This document shows, piece by piece, positions 3,385-24,849 of a stretch of DNA of 36,926 bases; positions within the stretch are counted from its first letter, which is position 1; the number at the start of each line of letters is the position of its first letter. Both the position numbers and the translations under genes were made by a program. This DNA is from a bacterium. GTDB taxonomy: Bacteria > Patescibacteriota > Minisyncoccia > JAUYLV01. The notes beneath the pieces are model-generated. The model was given only the letters and a program-made list of their open reading frames with translations. It ran no database searches and was not told where the DNA came from. The stretch is taken from NCBI GenBank assembly GCA_030649025.1, contig JAUSGO010000035.1:1-36926 (forward strand), written 5' to 3'.

Positions 3385-5604
3385 CTAGAATGCCATTTTT
3401 GTTTTCTGTCTCCGCAAGAATAATCGCGCCGTGCCGAAAAGGACCGCAAGAAGGGGAATGCCTATCATGATGCCATACTGCACCATTGTCTGCTCGTCCG
3501 ATGAAGCAAACGTGAGAGGGCGGGAGCTTGCGGTTTTTGAGCGGATGGAGATCAATCCCTCGTTTTCCGCAAGCCAGTCTATCGCATTCAAGCCGAAGGC
3601 GATGTTTTCCGGTTTGCCGCCGATGACCTGGTCGGAGAGCATTGAGGAGCTGCCAAGCACGATAGCACGTCCCGTGCCGCCAAGAATATTTTTTATAAGT
3701 ACTGCCACGGTACGCTCTCCAAGCGCGCTCCGGTCCACGGCAAACTCTTGGTTCGGTTGGAGCATAAAACTATTACGCTGTTCTCCCGCGAAGGGCGAAG
3801 TTTTCAGCAATGGTGTTGCTTCGGACGAGACAGCCTTATCTTGCGGAATTTCAAGAGACGCACCCCACGAGTACACGATGCTTTTTAAGTCTTTTGTCAC
3901 CGGGGTGTCTGAAGCGGCTCCCACGCGCGCCCAGAAGGGGTAGGGAAGTACGAAGGTAAGCGGCCCCCCGGTATTGAACTGCACATTTTCGTTCGCGCGT
4001 AGGTCGTATACCACGGACGGATTTATTTTCACGCCAAGCGTTTTTTCAATGAACGCAGGAAGACTGGTGTTTGAAGGAGAAGCGGTAAGCGATCGAAAAT
4101 CAAGCTGTACGCCGTCTACAAGAAAAAATGCCCTGCCTCCTCCCTTGAGATATTCCGTGATCAAATTTTCCTCGTTCTGGCTAAGCGCCTGGGTGGGTCC
4201 CGCAACAACCAGTATATCGGAATATGCAAGGGCGGATGACGAAAGAGAAGTTGCGGTCAGAAGCGATACGCTTTCTATGTCGAAAGCATTTGCAAGTTCT
4301 CCCCGTAAGGCGCTGTAGCCGTCCGTGGAAATTTCATTATGTCCTTCCAAAAAGGCAACAGTTTTTTTCGACTCGTCCGCAAACCGATGGATGAGCCGGG
4401 AGAGCTGATATTCGAAATCAGCCGTTTGCGAAATATACGGAATAACTTCGGCGCGCTTGTCTTTTTGGGAGATTGTAAGCCCGAAAAATCCTTCTTTAAC
4501 CTGAAATTCTCCTTTGCGCACCACGTTGAACTGAATTGGCGGAACGCCGGAATTCACAGCTTCCTGTTTTTCTGTGTCGCTCTCCGGATGCGCTTGCTCG
4601 ATAAGAATTTTGCCTTTCGAGACGCTTCTGTAGTCGTTTAGCATGTCGGTAACATCTCTTTGCGCAACGATGAGCTCTGTCGGAAGATTCTGAGAGGCAT
4701 ACAATTTTATCGTTAAGGGTTCCGCAAGACCGGCAACAAGGGTTTTAGTGGCCTGCGAAAGCGTGTAAAGACGACCCGATGTGAGGTCAAACCGGAAAGA
4801 AATAAAGCTAACTGCGCCATTCCACACTACAACAAGAGCAACAAGCGCCAATACCCAGGAGTTTATGCTGCGCCAAGCGGAAGAAAACCGGGTCAGGCGC
4901 TTGCGCATGAATCCAATGTAGGCAAAGCTCCCGAACAGCGTTGTAAGAGAAAGAAAGTACACCACGTCGCGAAGATCAATAACGCCCCGCGTGATATTTG
5001 AAAAATGCCACAGGATGCTCATCTGCTGCATGAACGAAGAAATGCCAGCCGATACACTGCCGATAGCGGCTTCCCATCCGATGACGATAAAGAAAAAAAT
5101 GATCGCGATAGAAAGAATGAAAGCGACTATCTGGTTTTTGGTGAGCCCCGATGCAAAAAATCCTATTGCGCAAAGTCCCGAGACCAAAAACACGGTACCA
5201 AGGTACTGCGCCGCAACAAGCCCCCAATCGAAGCTTCCGAATTTCGCAAGCACCAAAAGTGCGGGCAGTGTTGCGAACACTCCCAACATGATTGTTGCAA
5301 ATGCTCCCAGATACTTGCCCAAAAGATATTGCGCGGGGCTGACGGGTTGGGAAAGAAATACCTCGCTCGTGCCCTCCTTCTCGTCAGCCGCAAGAGACCG
5401 CATGGTGATGGCAGGAACGAGGAATAAAAGCAGCCAGGGAAGGAAATTAAAGAGGGGACGCAGTGAAGCTTCGCTTACCACAAGCGTGGAGCGGAAGTAG
5501 AAGAAAAACACAAGCCCCAAAAATACCACCAGGATAATATATCCCCCCGGATGGTCGAAGTGTGATTTCAGTTCTCTTTTTGCGAATGTGAAAATAGATT
5601 TCAT
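3385..5604 (-). CDS. Fused GldF-GldG-type ABC transporter permease/auxiliary protein
   Basis: A 739-residue protein. Residues 1-240 are an ABC-2 permease with six hydrophobic segments, starting FAKRELKSHFDHPGGYI and containing the family signature SLAADEKEGTSEVFLSQPVSPAQYLLGKY. A further membrane helix at about 255-275 leads into a GldG-like periplasmic region (FDLTSGRLYTLSQATKTL, then LPPIQFNVV and FLEGHNE-type segments) and a C-terminal membrane helix near 705-725. In Bacteroidota GldF and GldG are separate proteins needed, with GldA, for gliding; homologues elsewhere are exporters of unknown cargo. Here both parts are one chain. It starts 4 bases after the ATPase gene, so the two are one operon. 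The ends match the standard ends of both families. Confidence 0.85.
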   Translation of the reverse strand: MKSIFTFAKRELKSHFDHPGGYIILVVFLGLVFFFYFRSTLVVSEASLRPLFNFLPWLLLFLVPAITMRSLAADEKEGTSEVFLSQPVSPAQYLLGKYLGAFATIMLGVFATLPALLVLAKFGSFDWGLVAAQYLGTVFLVSGLCAIGFFASGLTKNQIVAFILSIAIIFFFIVIGWEAAIGSVSAGISSFMQQMSILWHFSNITRGVIDLRDVVYFLSLTTLFGSFAYIGFMRKRLTRFSSAWRSINSWVLALVALVVVWNGAVSFISFRFDLTSGRLYTLSQATKTLVAGLAEPLTIKLYASQNLPTELIVAQRDVTDMLNDYRSVSKGKILIEQAHPESDTEKQEAVNSGVPPIQFNVVRKGEFQVKEGFFGLTISQKDKRAEVIPYISQTADFEYQLSRLIHRFADESKKTVAFLEGHNEISTDGYSALRGELANAFDIESVSLLTATSLSSSALAYSDILVVAGPTQALSQNEENLITEYLKGGGRAFFLVDGVQLDFRSLTASPSNTSLPAFIEKTLGVKINPSVVYDLRANENVQFNTGGPLTFVLPYPFWARVGAASDTPVTKDLKSIVYSWGASLEIPQDKAVSSEATPLLKTSPFAGEQRNSFMLQPNQEFAVDRSALGERTVAVLIKNILGGTGRAIVLGSSSMLSDQVIGGKPENIAFGLNAIDWLAENEGLISIRSKTASSRPLTFASSDEQTMVQYGIMIGIPLLAVLFGTARLFLRRQKTKMAF

Positions 5605-8149: not shown

Positions 8150-8174
8150 AATCATGACTAAATTGGTCAAGATT
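8150..8174. promoter_or_regulatory. IscR type-1-like operator, copy 1 (dehydrogenase-like gene)
   Basis: A 25-bp imperfect palindrome with left arm AATCATGACTAA and core GACTAAATTGGTC, one base away from the IscR type-1 core GACTRWWWYAGTC. It lies about 47 bp before a -10 element (TATACT at 8209-8214) of the gene starting at 8241. An ATG inside the site (8154) opens a 12-codon frame (MTKLVKIKIYFL) that stops at 8192. Confidence 0.7.
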
Positions 8175-8240
8175 AAAATCTATTTTCTGTAGAAAAAGAA
8201 AAATATGCTATACTTAAATAATAAATTTATCATAACAAGC

Positions 8241-9221
8241 ATGCACAAGAAAATCGCTTTTTTCGAAGTGACGGCGTGGGAAAAAGAATGGCTGGTGAAG
8301 AATCTGGGCGGATTTGAGCCGAAGTTTTACAACTCGGCACTTAACGAAGAACACATTCCCCCCGAGCGGCACTTTCAGGCCATTTCTGTCGGCGAAGGGT
8401 CGTTTCTCACGAACGCTGTTCTTGAGGCGTTTTCGCATCTTGAACTTATAGTGATTCGTGGGAGGGAATTTGGGAATATTGACCTTGTCTCATGCCGCAA
8501 TAAAAAAATCATGGTTTGCCGTGCTCCGACGTATGCGGTGCATGCAGTGGCGGAATTTACATTTGCCCTCCTGCTTATGTTATCGCGCAGAGTTTGCGAA
8601 GCGGTCTTGCGCCAGAAAACAGGTAGCGATGCTACGCTTGATCGCCTGCGCGGGTTCGATCTTTACGGCAAGACGCTAGGAGTCTTGGGCACAGGCAACA
8701 TTGGAAGCGCGGTTATTCGCATCGCAAAGGGTTTTGGAATGAAGGTAATCGCGTGGAATCCGAAACAGAATTTACAGCTTGCCTCCGAGCTTGGTTTTGC
8801 GTATATGCCGTTTTTATCGGTTCTTGCGCATGCAGATGTCCTGACCATTCATTTGCCGCATGTGCAGGGTGGCGTCGGTCAAACTCACCACCTTCTTAAC
8901 CGGGAAGCTCTCACGCAGATGAAACGCGGGTCTTTGCTGATCAACACCTCCGGTGCCGATATTATTGATAACGATGCACTGGGAAATTTACTACAAGAAG
9001 GGGTTCTTGCGGGCGCTGCTCTTGATGTTGAGCCCGGTACTCTGCGAGAAGATTTTTTGCGGCAGGAGCGCTTTATTATAACTCCGCGTATGGCATTCAA
9101 CACGCAGGAAACCCTGGAGCATCTTCTGCGGGCAACAACGGAGAACATTCACGCGTATTTTCGGGGATTTCCGCAGCATACGGTGGGGCAGAGTGCTCCA
9201 GCGGAGCATTCTGCGGGGTGA
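8241..9221 (+). CDS. D-2-hydroxyacid dehydrogenase-like protein, probable pseudoenzyme
   Basis: A protein of 326 residues from the ATG at 8241; the frame stays open to 8205, but the added 12 residues do not look native. The fold is that of NAD-dependent 2-hydroxyacid dehydrogenases: substrate domain at about 1-100 and 285-310, and Rossmann domain with GVLGTGNIGSA at 147-157. The family's catalytic Arg, normally in an NT(S/A)RG motif, is Gly238 here (INTSGAD). The catalytic His, normally in a TPH motif, is Arg283 (TPRMAF). Only the Glu region (LDVEP) may remain. NAD binding looks intact, dehydrogenase chemistry does not. The gene follows an IscR-type operator, so it may act as a cofactor sensor or binding partner in the Fe-S regulon. 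Confidence 0.8.
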   Translation: MHKKIAFFEVTAWEKEWLVKNLGGFEPKFYNSALNEEHIPPERHFQAISVGEGSFLTNAVLEAFSHLELIVIRGREFGNIDLVSCRNKKIMVCRAPTYAVHAVAEFTFALLLMLSRRVCEAVLRQKTGSDATLDRLRGFDLYGKTLGVLGTGNIGSAVIRIAKGFGMKVIAWNPKQNLQLASELGFAYMPFLSVLAHADVLTIHLPHVQGGVGQTHHLLNREALTQMKRGSLLINTSGADIIDNDALGNLLQEGVLAGAALDVEPGTLREDFLRQERFIITPRMAFNTQETLEHLLRATTENIHAYFRGFPQHTVGQSAPAEHSAG

Positions 9222-15935: not shown

Positions 15936-15960
15936 AATGTTGACCAATTTAGTCATGATT
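15936..15960. promoter_or_regulatory. IscR type-1-like operator, copy 2 (regulator gene)
   Basis: The palindrome is here in reverse orientation relative to the other five: core GACCAATTTAGTC. It covers the -35 element TTGACC (15940-15945) of a promoter whose -10 is TATCAT (15963-15968, 17-bp spacer). This is the arrangement expected for autorepression of the rrf2 gene at 16022. Confidence 0.8.
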
Positions 15961-15965
15961 ACTAT

Positions 15966-16001
15966 CATAGTAACGGTAGACGTACATAGTAACGGTAGAC
16001 G
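15966..16001 (+). repeat. Two 17-bp direct repeats in the regulator leader
   Basis: CATAGTAACGGTAGACG occurs at 15966-15982 and again at 15985-16001, 19 bp apart, between the -10 element and the start of rrf2. It may be a local duplication or a second binding site. Confidence 0.6.
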
Positions 16002-16021
16002 CAGTATTTGCCGTACGAGAT

Positions 16022-16414
16022 ATGAAAATCACCACGAGAGGTTTTTATGCGGTAGAGGTTATGCGGGCATTAGCTTCGTGGGATAAGAGCTTGCCTATGT
16101 CCATTGCGGACATCGAGGAGAAAACGGGGATACCACGAGATTATATCGCAAGACTTCTTCTTCGTCTGAAACATGCGGATCTTGCCGAGAGCTTTCGGGG
16201 AAACGCGGGAGGATATCGCATCGCAAAAAAACCAAAAGATATATCTCTTGTTGATGTCTTTACTGCCGTAGGGGAGGATATCGCCCCATGGCCCGCAACC
16301 CCCCGGTCCTACAAGAGACGTCCGCTCATTTGTCCCATACATCCCGTTTGGCAAAGACTGTATACTACGAATAAGTCGTTTCTCGAGAAGACGTCTCTTA
16401 CCGATTTCTTGTAA
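16022..16414 (+). CDS. Rrf2/IscR-family transcriptional regulator lacking two cluster ligands
   Basis: A 130-residue protein that aligns with E. coli IscR without gaps through residue 110. The winged helix-turn-helix (ADIEEKTGIPRDYIARLLLRLK) and wing (FRGNAGGY, residues 58-65) are intact. Of the IscR cluster ligands Cys92, Cys98, Cys104 and His107, only Cys104 and His107 remain; positions 92 and 98 are Ala and Lys. Position 43, Glu in IscR, is Ala. In E. coli, Glu43 keeps the apo-protein off type-1 sites (from memory of structural work). So this protein may bind type-1 operators without a cluster. It ends shortly after the ligand region and lacks the E. coli tail. It sits directly before sufCB and is probably self-regulated. 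Confidence 0.9.
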   Translation: MKITTRGFYAVEVMRALASWDKSLPMSIADIEEKTGIPRDYIARLLLRLKHADLAESFRGNAGGYRIAKKPKDISLVDVFTAVGEDIAPWPATPRSYKRRPLICPIHPVWQRLYTTNKSFLEKTSLTDFL

Positions 16415-16476: not shown

Positions 16477-16501
16477 AATCATGACTAAATTGGTCAAGAT
16501 T
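16477..16501. promoter_or_regulatory. IscR type-1-like operator, copy 3 (upstream of sufC)
   Basis: Core GACTAAATTGGTC with arms AATCA and AAGATT, identical over all 25 bp to copy 1. Its internal ATG (16481) opens a 23-codon frame starting MTKLVKIKK that stops at 16552, 23 bases before the sufC start. A possible -10 (TATATT) lies at 16542-16547. Confidence 0.75.
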
Positions 16502-16571
16502 AAAAAATTGATAAGCTCGTACTCGAGAGCGATACGTAGGATATATTTTTAAATCCCATCTTTAACGCTTC

Positions 16572-16596
16572 AATCATGACTAAATTAGTCAACATT
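16572..16596. promoter_or_regulatory. IscR type-1-like operator, copy 4 (overlaps the sufC start)
   Basis: Core GACTAAATTAGTC matches GACTRWWWYAGTC exactly. The ATG of sufC (16576-16578) lies inside the left arm, so the operator encodes the first seven residues of SufC (MTKLVNI). Bound regulator here could block elongation. Confidence 0.75.
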
Positions 16597-17370
16597 AAAA
16601 ATTTGCATGTTACGGTGAAAGAGGGCGCAGTGCATAAAACCGTGCTTGAGGGGGTTTCTTTGCAGGTGGGAAGGGGAGAAATCCATGCGCTCATGGGGCC
16701 GAACGGTTCTGGGAAAAGCTCGCTGGCGTACGCAGTGATGGGGCATCCATTGTATCGCGTCACAAAAGGTAGCATCACGTTCCAAGGAAAGAATCTACTT
16801 GTGCTTAAACCCGAACAACGTGCGCGGCTTGGCATATTCCTGTCATTCCAGGAACCGCCGGAGGTTGGAGGAGTGGCGCTAGGCACATTCCTGCGCACTA
16901 TTGCCAAAAAACAGCCGCATCTGCCGAATATTGATCCGCTCAAAGATGCTCCGGGCAGAAGACTTCAAATGAAAGAGGCGGCACTTGCAATGCAACGCGT
17001 GAAGGCTATCGCTCCGGCACTCGGTCTGCAAGAAGGTTTTTTTGATCGGGCGCTCAATGAAGGATTCTCCGGCGGTGAGAAGAAAAAAAGCGAGATTTTG
17101 CAGATGCTCGCGTTAAAGCCCAAGCTTGCCATTATTGACGAGATAGACTCGGGGCTCGACTTCGATTCGCTTAAAACAATAACTGCTTCATTAAAAAAAG
17201 CCGTCAAAGACGGCATGGGACTGGTTCTGATAAGCCACTACACGCGGATTTTTAAGACACTCAAACCCAAATTCGTGCACGTATTGAAAGGAGGAAAAAT
17301 AGCCATTGAAGGAGGTTCGTCAATGCTTAAAAAATTAGATTCCAACGGATACGGCAATTTAGGAACTTAA
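16576..17370 (+). CDS. sufC: Fe-S cluster assembly ATPase SufC
   Basis: A 264-residue ABC-type ATPase. Walker A is GPNGSGKSS at 41-49, the signature is SGGEKKKSE at 165-173, and Walker B is AIIDEIDSGLD at 185-195, with the His of the H-loop in LISHYTRI. The EKKK signature and DEIDSGLD are SufC hallmarks. It works in the cytoplasm in the SufBCD complex, where ATP binding drives the scaffold change needed for cluster assembly. The family usually starts near MLxIKNLHV, which fits the ATG at 16576 within the operator. No Shine-Dalgarno sequence is visible. sufB starts 8 bases after its stop. Confidence 0.95.
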   Translation: MTKLVNIKNLHVTVKEGAVHKTVLEGVSLQVGRGEIHALMGPNGSGKSSLAYAVMGHPLYRVTKGSITFQGKNLLVLKPEQRARLGIFLSFQEPPEVGGVALGTFLRTIAKKQPHLPNIDPLKDAPGRRLQMKEAALAMQRVKAIAPALGLQEGFFDRALNEGFSGGEKKKSEILQMLALKPKLAIIDEIDSGLDFDSLKTITASLKKAVKDGMGLVLISHYTRIFKTLKPKFVHVLKGGKIAIEGGSSMLKKLDSNGYGNLGT

Positions 17371-17378
17371 AACTTGTT

Positions 17379-18773
17379 ATGCAGACAAAGGTTAAAACCG
17401 AGGAATACCGATACGGATTCCACGATACGGAAAAAACGCTCTATCAAACAGCTCCCGGGCTTTCGCGCCGCGTGGTTGAAGAGATATCGCATATTAAAAA
17501 TGAACCTGCGTGGATGCGGGAATTCCGTTTGCGCGCGTATGATGTTTTTCTGGCAAAGCAAATGCCGCAGTGGGGAGGAGAGCTTTCAAACATCGATTTT
17601 AACAATATCGTTTATTACGCAAAGACCGCCGACAAACAATCAAGAAGCTGGGAAGATGTGCCGCCGCAGATAAAAAATACCTTTGAGCGCCTCGGTGTAC
17701 CGGAGGCAGAGCGGAGGCTTTTTGCGGGAGTCGGCGCGCAGTACGATTCGGATGTCATTTATCACAACGTACGGGAGGATCTAGAAAAACAGGGGGTCAT
17801 TTTCGCGGATACGGATACGGCGGTGCAAAAATACCCGGACCTCGTGAAAAAATATTTCGGCTCGATTATTCCTGTCGGAGATAACAAATTCGCCGCACTG
17901 AACTCTGCATGTTGGTCCGGCGGAAGTTTTATTTATGTGCCCAAGGGCGTGAAAGTGGAGATGCCTCTGCAAGCATATTTTCGCATCAACTCCAAAAATT
18001 TTGGCCAGTTCGAGCGGACGCTCATTATTGCCGACGAAGGAAGCGACCTCCATTACATTGAAGGGTGTACTGCGCCCGTGTATTCCACCGATTCATTGCA
18101 TGCGGCCGTGGTTGAGATCATTGCACATAAGAACGCGCATGTGCGTTATACGACAATACAGAACTGGTCTTCGAACGTCTACAATCTTGTCACCAAGCGC
18201 GCCCGGGCCGAAGAAGGCGCGTTCGTGGAATGGATCGACGGAAATCTCGGGTCAAAACTGACCATGAAATATCCAAGCGTATTCATGTTCGGGAGGGGAG
18301 CGCGAGCCGATATACTTTCCATGGCGCTTGCGGGACCCGGACAGCACCAGGATGCGGGAGCTAAAGTGGTACACCTTGCGCCAGATACCACTTCAAGTAT
18401 TATTTCAAAATCGGTTTCATTCGGCGGAGGACGAACAACGTATCGCGGGCTTGCAAAGGTTGTTAAGGGCGCGGAGCGGAGCCGTATTTCGGTTCGTTGC
18501 GACGCGCTCATTCTTGACCCGGAATCGCGCTCGGACACTTATCCCACAATGGCTATTGAGGAAGAGAATGTACGGGTTGAACATGAAGCAACCGTATCTC
18601 GGATTGGTGAGAAGGAATTATTTTATTTAAATGCGCGCGGACTTACGCAAATAGAGGCGACAAGCATGATAGTCGCGGGATTTTTTGAGCCACTTGCGAA
18701 AGTTTTGCCGATCGATTATGCGATTGAGTTGAATAGGTTGATTGAGATGGAAATGGAAGGAAGCGTGGGGTAG
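17379..18773 (+). CDS. sufB: Fe-S cluster assembly scaffold SufB
   Basis: A 464-residue protein of normal length. It has the SufB N-terminus (YRYGFHDTEKTLYQTAPGLS), the beta-helix core with NSACWSGGSFIYVPKGVKVEMPLQAYFRIN, YIEGCTAPVYSTDSLHAAVVEI, and the C-terminal SRSDTYPTMAIEEENVRVEHEATVSRI followed by YLNARGLTQIEA. The Cys in EGCTAP and the one in VRCDALI match conserved SufB cysteines used for sulfur transfer and cluster binding. It forms the scaffold with SufC and SufD. It is co-transcribed with sufC. Its stop codon is the first base triplet of a long imperfect inverted repeat. Confidence 0.95.
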   Translation: MQTKVKTEEYRYGFHDTEKTLYQTAPGLSRRVVEEISHIKNEPAWMREFRLRAYDVFLAKQMPQWGGELSNIDFNNIVYYAKTADKQSRSWEDVPPQIKNTFERLGVPEAERRLFAGVGAQYDSDVIYHNVREDLEKQGVIFADTDTAVQKYPDLVKKYFGSIIPVGDNKFAALNSACWSGGSFIYVPKGVKVEMPLQAYFRINSKNFGQFERTLIIADEGSDLHYIEGCTAPVYSTDSLHAAVVEIIAHKNAHVRYTTIQNWSSNVYNLVTKRARAEEGAFVEWIDGNLGSKLTMKYPSVFMFGRGARADILSMALAGPGQHQDAGAKVVHLAPDTTSSIISKSVSFGGGRTTYRGLAKVVKGAERSRISVRCDALILDPESRSDTYPTMAIEEENVRVEHEATVSRIGEKELFYLNARGLTQIEATSMIVAGFFEPLAKVLPIDYAIELNRLIEMEMEGSVG

Positions 18774-20286: not shown

Positions 20287-20311
20287 AATCATGACTAAAT
20301 TAGTCAACATT
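20287..20311. promoter_or_regulatory. IscR type-1-like operator, copy 5 (upstream of sufD)
   Basis: Core GACTAAATTAGTC, identical over 25 bp to copies 4 and 6. Its internal ATG (20291) gives MTKLVNIR and a stop at 20317. Confidence 0.75.
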
Positions 20312-20358: not shown

Positions 20359-20383
20359 AATCATGACTAAATTAGTCAACATT
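20359..20383. promoter_or_regulatory. IscR type-1-like operator, copy 6 (directly before sufD)
   Basis: The core is the same as in copies 4 and 5, and the site lies 72 bp after copy 5. It ends 14 bases before the sufD start and contains the start codon of the leader frame at 20363. Confidence 0.75.
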
Positions 20384-20401
20384 AAACATAGCTACGCATG
20401 A
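20363..20401 (+). other. Candidate 12-codon leader peptide coupled to sufD
   Basis: The ATG inside operator copy 6 reads MTKLVNIKHSYA and ends in TGA at 20399-20401. That stop shares bases with the sufD ATG (20398-20400) in an ATGA overlap, the usual form of translational coupling. Whether it is translated is not known. It has the same first seven residues as SufC. Confidence 0.4.
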
Positions 20402-21060
20402 GCGCTAAAAGAAAAATCAAAACTGTGGCGGGGAGCGCATTACATACGCCGCACACGGCGCAAACGGAGTGCGTCTTTTCTCAGGATATGACCGACAATT
20501 GGGAACGGGAATTTGTGTTTGACCAAGAGGCCGAGCAGAGAAAGTATGTCTTTATTTTTCAGGGAAAAGTTCCCGAGCGCGTAAACCTGTCTCTGCGGCT
20601 TGCGGCCCGTAATACCCGTGTGGAAGTGGTTTCGGTTTTTTTGGGGAAAGGCAATATGCGCTCAAAAATCAATTTTACGGTGTCTCACGAAGCGCCCGAA
20701 ACGTTCGGCAGGATACTTTTTAAGGCGGCTCTTTTTGATGAATCGCGGGTTGATTTTGCGGGGATGCTTAAAATAGCAAAAGGGGCCGATGGCAGCGATT
20801 CATATCTTCAGGCCCGCGCCCTTTTGGTATCTTCCAAGGCCATGGCTCGGCTTGACCCGGGGCTTGAGATACTGGCCAATAACGTCAAGGCATCGCATGG
20901 AGCGACCGTTGGACGCTTGCGTGAGCAGGATGTATTCTATTTACAGAGTCGCGGACTTTCTAAGGAAGATGCAGGGCGCATGCTGGTCACCGGATTTTTT
21001 TCTGATGCCTTGCGTATGATGCCGGAGGAAGTTAACGAAAAAGTGAGTAAATTTTTGTAG
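20398..21060 (+). CDS. sufD: SufD-like Fe-S assembly protein, short form
   Basis: A 220-residue protein, about half the usual SufD length. It keeps the C-terminal half of the SufB/SufD beta-helix (INFTVSHEAPETFGRILFKAALFDESRVDFAGMLKIAKGADGSDSYLQARALLVS) and the closing helical segment (LEILANNVKASHGATVGRLREQDVFYLQSRGLSKEDAGRMLVTGFF), which contacts SufC and SufB. The N-terminal helical domain is missing. It probably forms the heterodimer with SufB in a reduced complex. The start overlaps the leader stop. Two operator copies precede it, so it is controlled apart from sufCB. Confidence 0.85.
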   Translation: MSAKRKIKTVAGSALHTPHTAQTECVFSQDMTDNWEREFVFDQEAEQRKYVFIFQGKVPERVNLSLRLAARNTRVEVVSVFLGKGNMRSKINFTVSHEAPETFGRILFKAALFDESRVDFAGMLKIAKGADGSDSYLQARALLVSSKAMARLDPGLEILANNVKASHGATVGRLREQDVFYLQSRGLSKEDAGRMLVTGFFSDALRMMPEEVNEKVSKFL

Positions 21061-21879: not shown

Positions 21880-23094
21880 ATGATTCCCCAAACCATCAAA
21901 AACGATTTTCCAATATTTGCCGAGCATCCGGAGCTCGTGTATTTGGACAGCACCGCAACGGCGCAAAAGCCCAAGGCCGTTATTGACGCGATATCGGAGC
22001 ATTACACAAAACGCAATGCCAACGTGCATCGCGGGATATATGGTATTTCGGAGGAAGCGACCGTCGCGTATGAAGCGGCACGGGAGAAAATCGCCAAGTT
22101 CATCAACGCGCCAAGCTCTCGTAATATCATATTCGTGCGTAATGCCACCGAGGGTATAAACTTGCTTGCCCATTCGTGGGGGCAGGACAACTTGAAAGAA
22201 GGGGACGAGGTGCTTACCACGCTCATGGAGCATCATGCCAACATCGTCCCCTGGCACATGCGCGCAAAGTCTCATGGCATAACGGTTGCGTTCATGGGGG
22301 TTACGAAAGACGGGTATTTGGATGAAGCTGGTATTGAAAATAAAGTTTCCGGAAAAACCAAACTTGCCGCCTTCACCCATGCCTCAAATGTGCTGGGTAC
22401 CATAAATCCGGTAAAAAAGCTCACCGAGTATTTTCATAAGCGCGGCATACCCGTTCTGGTTGACGGCGCGCAAGCCGTTCCGCATTTCAAAGTTGATGTG
22501 CAGGATATCGGTTGCGATTTTTACGTATTTTCGGGCCACAAGATGCTGGGCCCTTCGGGTATTGGGGTGTTGTATGTAAGCGATGCCTGGCTTGATAAGT
22601 TACCACCGTTTCTTGGGGGAGGGGAGATGATTATGAGTGTTACGCAAAAGGATTTTACGTATCAGGAGGCTCCACTGCGTTTTGAGGCGGGAACCCCGGC
22701 CATTGAAGCGGCCATTGGCTTGGGGGCTGCGATTGATTATCTTGCGAGCATCGGTATGGACGAGATACGGAAGCACGAAATTGAACTTACTGCATACGCG
22801 CTTGAGGAGCTTGCCAAGATTCCTGGGCTTATCGTTCACGGTCCCAAAAAAGCAGAAGACCGAACAGGAGTTGTGGCATTTACCATGGCCAATATCCATC
22901 CGCACGACCTTGCTTCATTGCTTGATGCGGAACACATTTGCATGCGCGCGGGAAACCACTGCACCATGCCTTTGCATATGGATGTTCTGGGGGTTCCAGC
23001 CACCACCCGTATGAGTTTCTACATTTACAACAGCAAGGAAGATATTGAAAAAGCAGTCTCGGTACTTAAAAATATTTCTGCGGAACTGTGTTAG
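21880..23094 (+). CDS. sufS: Cysteine desulfurase SufS (group II)
   Basis: A 404-residue PLP enzyme of full length. It begins IKNDFPIF ... VYLDSTATAQKP, has NVHRGIYGIS, THASNVLGT, the PLP Lys221 in SGHKMLGPSGIG, and the catalytic Cys361 in RAGNHCTMPLH, which is the SufS pattern. It takes sulfur from cysteine as an enzyme persulfide and passes it to SufU or SufB in the cytoplasm. The SufU-like protein is encoded next. An AGGAT precedes the start by about 10 bases. No operator copy lies in the 86 bases upstream. Confidence 0.95.
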   Translation: MIPQTIKNDFPIFAEHPELVYLDSTATAQKPKAVIDAISEHYTKRNANVHRGIYGISEEATVAYEAAREKIAKFINAPSSRNIIFVRNATEGINLLAHSWGQDNLKEGDEVLTTLMEHHANIVPWHMRAKSHGITVAFMGVTKDGYLDEAGIENKVSGKTKLAAFTHASNVLGTINPVKKLTEYFHKRGIPVLVDGAQAVPHFKVDVQDIGCDFYVFSGHKMLGPSGIGVLYVSDAWLDKLPPFLGGGEMIMSVTQKDFTYQEAPLRFEAGTPAIEAAIGLGAAIDYLASIGMDEIRKHEIELTAYALEELAKIPGLIVHGPKKAEDRTGVVAFTMANIHPHDLASLLDAEHICMRAGNHCTMPLHMDVLGVPATTRMSFYIYNSKEDIEKAVSVLKNISAELC

Positions 23095-23167: not shown

Positions 23168-23203
23168 AGGTTGGACGCCAGGGAGTTTTTCCCGGTGAAT
23201 CTT

Positions 23204-23602
23204 ATGTCAACAAACCTTACCGCATTCAAGCGTATATGGGAATTAAGCAAGGATTCGCCGTATATGGCAAAAATAGATAATCCTGATTTTGCCTTCTCCG
23301 GAGATAACGCGGTGTGCGGGGATTGGATGGAGCTTGCGTTTCGGATGCATAAAGATGGTTCGACAAAGCTCACCACGGGCAAAATCGCCGAGGCTCGATT
23401 TTTGCACACGGGGTGCGCCGTAAGCGCGGTTGCCGCCTCCGTTCTTATGGAATACGCGGAAGGAAAAACGCTGGATGAGGTTCGGAAAGTCACGCCAGAG
23501 GAACAGTTAAAGCTTTTTGGTGCTCCCGTAAGTCCCGCCCGCATCAAGTGCGCGCTTTTGCCGCTTGAAGTTCTGAAGATGGATCCGAAGAAAAAAAGGT
23601 AG
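23204..23602 (+). CDS. sufU: SufU/IscU-type sulfur acceptor and scaffold protein
   Basis: A protein of 132 residues from the ATG at 23204, with GGTGA 6 bases upstream; a TTG at 23171 is in frame but unlikely. The three ligand cysteines and the Asp are present: Cys38-Gly-Asp40 (NAVCGDWMEL), Cys71 (HTGCAVSAVAASVL) and Cys116 (RIKCALLPLEVL). In SufU a Zn at these residues lets the protein accept persulfide from SufS; in IscU they hold a nascent cluster. Pairing with SufS next door favours the SufU role, although a NifS/IscS-type enzyme also follows by 8 bases. Confidence 0.9.
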   Translation: MSTNLTAFKRIWELSKDSPYMAKIDNPDFAFSGDNAVCGDWMELAFRMHKDGSTKLTTGKIAEARFLHTGCAVSAVAASVLMEYAEGKTLDEVRKVTPEEQLKLFGAPVSPARIKCALLPLEVLKMDPKKKR

Positions 23603-23610
23603 CGTGCTCT

Positions 23611-24849
23611 ATGCGAAGAATCAAACCAAACAAAAAATTCATATATCTTGACCACGCCGCAACTACTCCGCTCGACCCAAAAGTAGAACAGGAGATGCGG
23701 CTGTTTTGGAGCGAAAAATTCCAAAATCCGTCGAGTATCTATGGAGGAGGACTTGAAACTCGCAAAGCCGTCGAGAATGCCCGGAAACATATCGCCGATA
23801 TTTTGCATTGCTCGTCATCGGAGGTCGTATTTACGCCCGGAGGAACGGCAAGCGACAATCTTGCGGTATTGGGCATTGCGCGGGCATATGCGGGCGGCGG
23901 AAAGAAGCACATCATTGTCTCGTCCATTGAACATGAAGCGGTGCTGGAGCCCGCACGGCAACTTGAGAAAGATGGTTTTTCGGTTACTTTTTTGAAGATT
24001 GATAAAAATGGATTGGTAGACCCGCGGGATGTAAAGAAAGCTCTTCGTCCTGATACAATTTTTGTTTCTGTGATGTATGCGAACAACGAGATAGGCACCA
24101 TTCAGCCGATCCGCGAGATCGCCAAGACTATTCGTGACTTTAGAAAAATTCGCAATCCGCAATCCGCCCGCCTCGCCGAGACGGCGAGTCGAGGCTGGGC
24201 AATTCGCAATCCTGAATTACCCTATTTCCATACCGATGCATGCCAAGCTGCAAACTATCTTAATCTCAATGTACAAAAGCTCGGCGTGGACCTTATGACG
24301 CTCAACGGCTCAAAGATATACGGTCCGAAAATGAGCGGTATGCTGTATGTGAAAAGCGGGGTAAGGCTCAAACCCATTGTTTTTGGCGGCGGGCAGGAAA
24401 AGGGGTTGTGGAGCGGAACTGAAAATGTTCCGGGCATTGTAGGATTTGCGCGTGCGCTGGAGATCGTCGAGAAACTAAAGAGCAAAGAAGTCGCGCGGCT
24501 TACAAAACTTCGGGATTATTTTATTGGGAAACTGCAGAATGAAATAAAGGGCGTAGTGCTCAACGGCGATCCCGCTCGTCGCCTTCCCAATAACATCCAT
24601 ATCTCGGTTAGTGATGTTGAAGGAGAGGTTTTGGTTCTATATCTTGATGGGGTGCGAGTAGAGACGGCTGTGGGTTCCGCATGCACCGCGCAAAGCAGCA
24701 AGCCGTCGCACGTACTGACTGCTCTGGGCCTTTCTCCAAAGAAAGCCCGGGAGAGTCTCCGCATGACGCTCGGCAGAAACACCTCAAAGAAAAATTGTGA
24801 TGATGTCGTCGAAGAGATGAAAAAAGCAATTAAACTGCTCCGTCATTGA
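23611..24849 (+). CDS. NifS/IscS-type cysteine desulfurase (group I) with an in-frame insert
   Basis: A 412-residue PLP enzyme. It begins FIYLDHAATTPLDPKV, has SSIEHEAVL, YANNEIGTIQPI, PLP Lys235 in LNGSKIYGPKMSG and the catalytic Cys358 in VGSACTAQSSKPSHVL on the long mobile loop typical of group I. Residues of about 179-203 (IRNPQSARLAETASRGWAIRNPEL region) interrupt the family between the helix after NNEIG and the FHTDACQA strand. They come from a palindrome-bearing insert with IRNP encoded at both ends. The reading frame is kept, so the protein may stay active. It would supply sulfur for Fe-S clusters or tRNA thiolation. Confidence 0.9.
   Translation: MRRIKPNKKFIYLDHAATTPLDPKVEQEMRLFWSEKFQNPSSIYGGGLETRKAVENARKHIADILHCSSSEVVFTPGGTASDNLAVLGIARAYAGGGKKHIIVSSIEHEAVLEPARQLEKDGFSVTFLKIDKNGLVDPRDVKKALRPDTIFVSVMYANNEIGTIQPIREIAKTIRDFRKIRNPQSARLAETASRGWAIRNPELPYFHTDACQAANYLNLNVQKLGVDLMTLNGSKIYGPKMSGMLYVKSGVRLKPIVFGGGQEKGLWSGTENVPGIVGFARALEIVEKLKSKEVARLTKLRDYFIGKLQNEIKGVVLNGDPARRLPNNIHISVSDVEGEVLVLYLDGVRVETAVGSACTAQSSKPSHVLTALGLSPKKARESLRMTLGRNTSKKNCDDVVEEMKKAIKLLRH
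24147..24212 (+). repeat. Palindromic insert bounded by 12-bp direct repeats within a gene
   Basis: AATTCGCAATCC occurs at 24147-24158 and 24201-24212, exactly 54 bp apart, so the frame is kept. Between them CTCGCCG-AGA-CGGCGAG (24172-24188) and an outer GCCTCG/CGAGGC (24170-24175/24190-24195) form a hairpin. This is the layout of a small palindromic repeat element. Confidence 0.6.

Follow-up and report, generated by a model that had tools for sequence, protein, structure and literature searches.

A single-cysteine, IscR-like Rrf2 regulator with type-1-like boxes at the suf locus of a Patescibacteriota genome

The regulator encoded beside the suf genes of this Minisyncoccia genome (phylum Patescibacteriota) is, as far as its sequence tells, real, conserved and functional-looking; the kind of regulator is known, and this variant of it is new. 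In the window, that is, the whole stretch of 36,926 nucleotides that was analysed, an Rrf2 protein without two of the three cluster cysteines of Escherichia coli IscR is accompanied by palindromes that resemble IscR type-1 sites. We give about an even chance to the proposal that it is an IscR-like, autoregulated repressor of SUF, which senses through a reduced site where Cys104, with His107, binds an Fe-S cluster or iron in labile form.

The gene has an ATG start and no stop inside its frame (Table 1), and is the sole Rrf2 gene of a 1.23-Mb genome rated 100% complete. Its product scores 89 bits with the Pfam profile Rrf2 (PF02082, cut-off 30) and 98.4 with the NCBIfam profile rrf2_super (TIGR00738, cut-off 73.3), which places it in the Rrf2 superfamily, whereas it stays below the cut-offs of both the IscR equivalog (TIGR02010; 79.3 vs. 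207.55) and the CymR equivalog (NF047409; 56.4 vs. 195). An earlier sequence-only reading had described a gap-free alignment with E. coli IscR up to residue 110, with Ala43, Ala92 and Lys98, and with Cys104 and His107 kept. The alignment proved to be gap-free over residues 1–126 and gave the same residues: positions 43, 92, 98, 104 and 107 read A/A/K/C/H, against E/C/C/C/H in E. coli IscR (the sequence used and that of MG1655 agree except near residue 143, beyond the aligned stretch). The protein does not have the full IscR ligand set (Cys92, Cys98, Cys104, His107), and with these residues the usual Cys3His cluster binding cannot be expected of it. The closest PDB folds found with Foldseek were CymR, which was the best match, T. 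potens IscR and E. coli IscR; RsrR and NsrR were also matched. The AlphaFold2 model has a pLDDT of 89 and is weakest at residues 91–110; since this is the ligand loop, the model cannot choose between the sensing readings discussed below.

Downstream of rrf2 (3′), the gene order is sufC, sufB, hydrolase, sufD, miaA-like, sufS, sufU, and nifS-like. The sufD-like product has only 220 aa and lacks the N-terminal part of the usual SufD. The start of sufC (ATGACTAAATTGGTCAAGATTAAAAAATTG, MTKLVKIKKL) is present once more upstream of the gene, at 16482–16553, where the frame meets a stop after 23 codons; in sufC itself, box sequence makes up the opening codons. Between the rrf2 promoter and the start codon, a 19-bp tandem repeat, CATAGTAACGGTAGACGYA, is present twice (15966–16003; perfect but one). 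An Rfam search of the window gave no match. Elsewhere, on contig 29 of genome G000 (L034:3424-4213), repeated pieces that resemble the 5′ part of a tRNA (ATGCCGTTGTAGCTCAGCTGGTAGAGCAACTCCATGG) stand ahead of a stretch similar to a group I intron (AAGATACAGTCTAA), after which comes a 3′ half; the end of this half, CAACGGC, can pair with GCCGTTG at the start. The likely explanation is an intron-interrupted tRNA gene whose 5′ half is present in further copies; neither ARAGORN nor Rfam reported it.

Table 1. Features of the window around the rrf2 gene and the suf locus.
Feature	Position	Strand	Remarks
Type-1-like box AATCATGACTAAATTGGTCAAGATT	8150..8174	+	Upstream of D-2-hydroxyacid dehydrogenase gene (8205-9221)
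25-bp type-1-like box AATGTTGACCAATTTAGTCATGATT	15936..15960	+	Overlaps rrf2 promoter
Sigma-70-like rrf2 promoter TTGACC-17-TATCAT	15940..15968	+	Consensus match only, 10/12; -35 within box
rrf2/iscR-like gene	16022..16414	+	130 aa; Ala43, Ala92, Lys98, Cys104, His107
Type-1-like box AATCATGACTAAATTGGTCAAGATT	16477..16501	+	Upstream of sufC
Type-1-like box AATCATGACTAAATTAGTCAACATT	16572..16596	+	sufC start codon lies inside
sufC	16576..17370	+	TIGR01978 273 bits vs. cut-off 212.8
sufB	17379..18773	+	TIGR01980 704.6 bits vs. cut-off 346.4
Type-1-like box, distal	20287..20311	+	Upstream of sufD
Type-1-like box, proximal	20359..20383	+	Upstream of sufD; ends 14 bp before ATG
sufD-like, short SufBD core protein	20398..21060	+	PF01458 144.8 bits; TIGR01981 154, under cut-off 222
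sufS cysteine desulfurase	21880..23094	+	TIGR01979 553.8 bits vs. cut-off 475.1
sufU-like, NifU_N domain	23171..23602	+	PF01592 45.7 bits; TIGR01994 51.6, under cut-off
Second cysteine desulfurase, NifS/IscS-like	23611..24849	+	PF00266 215 bits; TIGR03402 402, under cut-off

Eight exact copies of the core GACYAAWTTRGTC are present in the genome, and six of them fall inside the window (binomial chance about 2e-8), where they start at 8156, 15942, 16483, 16578, 20293 and 20365. With one mismatch allowed, the genome has 11 sites, compared with 1 for a reversed-pattern control. The boxes extend to 25 bp (AATCATGACTAAATTRGTCAASATT), with a half-site of about AAWSWTGACYAA. They are called type-1-like because each of the two boxes of the MG1655 iscR promoter, ATACCCGACTAAATCAGTCAAGTAA and ATAGTTGACCAATTTACTCGGGAAT, is identical to the window core at 12 of 13 positions, which bears out the earlier remark that such sites are present. 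The promoter-like sequence lies 54 bp before rrf2; as a box overlaps its predicted -35 element, autorepression is the natural reading. The window protein thereby resembles IscR in its association with type-1 boxes, both at the promoter of its own gene and at genes for cluster assembly. An exact box at L033:3072-3096 is flanked by the 3′ ends of a hypothetical gene and of priA, so that not every box precedes a gene.

Among the genomes analysed, the family and order of the window genome are represented by two only, the second of which belongs to a sister genus. The sister protein is 60–61% identical to the window protein and has Glu43, Ala92, no Cys98, and Cys104-Pro-Ala-His107; both proteins retain CPxHPVW, and the ligand loop has an indel between the two genera. 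Because the loss of Cys92 and Cys98 is common to the sister genus, it is real, and together with the intact frame it ruled out a sequencing error or a pseudogene. The sister box, AAAGTTGACTAAWTTAGTCAACTTT, has five exact copies, one at rrf2, two in the interval from rrf2 to sufC and two on another contig, and a sixth copy has one mismatch; their outer sequence differs from that of the window boxes. Across the two genera, the protein type, the missing ligands and the boxes are thus conserved together, and residue 43 is not. On sister contig 16 (L039:3220-3250 and 3780-3830), boxes lie inside longer perfect palindromes, TCTCTCCCTCAAAGTTGACTAATTTAGTCAACTTTGAGGGAGAGA, one of them after a gene for an Mrr-type nuclease.

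More widely, Rrf2 genes are present in 66 of the 384 genomes of the class, which measure 0.5–1.3 Mb, and in 62 of 380 phylum genomes, and most of these sequences retain all three cysteines. When the window protein was searched against the collection of named genomes, a single weak relative came up, L032 (38% over 89 aa). In f35, a densely sampled family of the same class, the gene is present in 26 of 28 genomes, and Cys92 is gone in all aligned proteins but one. The genus g251 of this family (three genomes) is also devoid of Cys98, leaving Cys104 alone, and has His43 and Asn107, whereas Glu43 is found in f35 outside g251. The family is thus like the window pair in its SUF-linked rrf2, its GAC-N7-GTC boxes, its loss of Cys92 and the lone Cys104 of g251, and unlike it in Asn107, in the His43 of the single-cysteine genus and in its place in the tree. 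In that tree, a short one with many forks open, from which the ligand loop as well as residues 12 and 43 had been left out, the g251 trio (97) stands on another branch than the window pair (99), so that single-cysteine forms would have arisen at least twice. L026, which has only Cys92 and a short C-terminus, was excluded from these lineages as probably truncated. Cys104 is invariant in the 53-sequence alignment, including both lineages without Cys92 and Cys98.

Within 130 bp upstream, 43 of 90 rrf2 genes have GAC-N7-GTC, compared with 1.0 in mononucleotide shuffles, and 13 more of the 90 upstream regions have TAC-N7-GTA only. Residue 40 of the recognition helix predicts the first base of the core: Asp40 goes with GAC in 62 of 62 half-sites and Lys40 with TAC in 17 of 18. 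This covariation, in genomes that are related and not independent, supports a real pairing of protein and box, and the outer core base seems to be decoded by residue 40 across the phylum. The Lys40 proteins with TAC-N7-GTA upstream are L012, L018, L021, L029, L071, L074, L085 and L086.

The sequence-only reading had proposed that Ala43 enables type-1 binding without a cluster, on the ground that removal of the Glu43 charge unblocks apo-IscR of E. coli at these sites. This background is correct, as the apo form of the E43A variant binds type-1 sites (PMC5411485). However, Ala43 was rejected as the enabling change, because in the sister genome Glu43 goes together with the same cysteine losses, and the same boxes stand at rrf2 and ahead of sufC, and because many Glu43 proteins have boxes: dozens of Glu43 relatives with two or three cysteines carry GAC-N7-GTC. 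Neither is Ala43 restricted to proteins with lost cysteines, since L054 and L061 have it together with all three, a finding that the reading itself had named as counting against it; no GAC-N7-GTC box was found before either rrf2 gene. Streptomyces coelicolor NsrR, which has all three cysteines, has Ala44 at the equivalent position (PMC5411485). With just two independent single-cysteine lineages, too few to reach significance, the suggested co-occurrence of cysteine loss with a change at residue 43 amounts to a hint, seen in the window protein (Ala43) and in g251 (His43), and fails at the Glu43 of the sister. By these comparisons, Ala43 is a secondary change and not the cause of type-1 recognition. 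What survives of the "cluster-free type-1 binder" is the incomplete Cys3His site, the type-1-like boxes and a loss shared by the sister.

Among known systems, E. coli IscR is alike in its gap-free alignment, in a repressor gene that heads a cluster-assembly locus, in a type-1 core over its own promoter, and in Cys104 and His107. It differs in that the window protein has Ala43, lacks Cys92 and Cys98 and scores far under the IscR equivalog, and in that the window boxes stand at SUF rather than ISC. The single-cysteine IscR of Rhodobacteraceae (Rhodobacter sphaeroides; D. shibae, 7ZPN) also belongs to an isc-suf or suf locus, has one cysteine left where the canonical three are missing, and has boxes at its own promoter. 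However, its sole cysteine, Cys142, is off the canonical positions, whereas Cys104 of the window protein is at one, which places the latter outside that type; the two arose separately (PMC4618611). CymR of Bacillus subtilis and Staphylococcus aureus likewise has the Rrf2 fold without the three cluster cysteines, but regulates cysteine metabolism with CysK, whereas the window locus is suf and its boxes are type-1. Finally, RsrR and NsrR show that Asp, Glu or His of the other subunit can replace Cys as a ligand of an Rrf2 cluster, although cysteines from one subunit remain in both (two in RsrR, three in NsrR) and their operators are different.

In the proposed mechanism, the repressor would bind the 25-bp palindromes at its own gene and at SUF genes, and the palindrome covering the -35 of the rrf2 promoter would bring about autorepression. 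Of the ancestral cluster site, Cys104 would be left, and in the window protein His107 as well; together with a further non-cysteine ligand, perhaps a carboxylate from the other subunit, these residues would hold a labile [Fe-S] cluster or iron. SUF would then be repressed when the Fe-S supply is sufficient and released upon shortage. That the window protein binds DNA and represses is something we infer from sequence; in favour of the mechanism are the position of the only Rrf2 gene beside suf, the concentration of exact boxes in the window, and a sister with the same protein type and boxes. By analogy, a weakly held cluster, iron or redox is probably still sensed through the Cys104 remnant. 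In R. sphaeroides, the single-cysteine IscR reportedly carries an Fe-S cluster bound through that cysteine, gives the cluster up when iron is limiting or peroxide is present, and represses only in the holo form; the evidence for the cluster comes largely from UV-visible spectra, and the protein bound DNA without it too (PMC4618611). "Cluster-free" therefore holds for the usual Cys3His site and goes too far as a description of the protein.

It is because of this holo-repressor, and of the other-subunit ligands of RsrR and NsrR, that we favour a labile cluster or iron over constitutive action and over a thiol or metal switch. Against it count the different position of Cys142, the persistence of Cys104 in nearly every relative, which may be structural or ancestral, and the C92A variant of E. 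coli IscR, described as without any cluster (PMC12594620), so that one lost ligand can suffice to abolish it. Phe8, Glu12 and Trp90, unique to the f1 pair, were tried as substitute ligands and rejected, as they are not enriched in the pocket (p = 0.15; the pocket set was author-chosen). A decayed site that leaves the protein permanently on its type-1 boxes, with the SUF level set only by negative autoregulation, constitutively or buffered by concentration, is rather doubtful. Two of four ligands are gone, the ligand loop tolerates an indel, CymR works without a cofactor, and apo-IscR without Glu43 binds type-1 sites (PMC5411485), as the window protein with its Ala43 might; but the sister has the same boxes with Glu43, and CPxHPVW is retained in both genera, though Cys104 by itself is nearly universal.

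Direct sensing of oxidants, persulfide, Zn or Fe(II) by Cys104 with His107, and no Fe-S cluster, seems unlikely. A lone conserved cysteine beside a histidine would suit it, as would the best structural match, CymR, which in S. aureus has a recorded oxidation-sensitive cysteine. That switch cysteine is Cys25, however, elsewhere than Cys104, and His107 is Asn in g251, so that the Cys-His pair is not general. A broader form, in which a type-1-box SUF repressor gave up its cluster to read a thiol, persulfide or mononuclear metal via Cys104/His107, a state reached independently in two reduced-genome lineages by loss of Cys92 and then Cys98, is offered tentatively, as a possibility on the doubtful side. 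It is highly improbable that the boxes belong to some palindromic repeat with no relation to the Rrf2 protein, and that the regulator is simply decaying. Copies in the window genome are near-identical even at asymmetric outer bases, and one lies between convergent gene ends; yet the boxes are concentrated at suf, the sister keeps them at rrf2 and sufC despite a different outer sequence, nearly half of the relatives have one upstream of rrf2, residue 40 covaries with them, and they match the E. coli iscR promoter.

For E. coli IscR, binding to type-1 boxes requires the cluster, so a regulator that has kept the boxes and lost the ligands directly raises the question of whether a cluster is required at all. 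The relatives form a natural series (three cysteines with Glu43, two with Glu43, one with His43, one with Glu43, and one with Ala43); every member is linked to SUF, and almost every one has this kind of box, so that what the ligands do can be told apart from what residue 43 does without artificial mutants. More generally, regulation of Fe-S assembly appears to be retained in reduced genomes even where the classical sensor has eroded.
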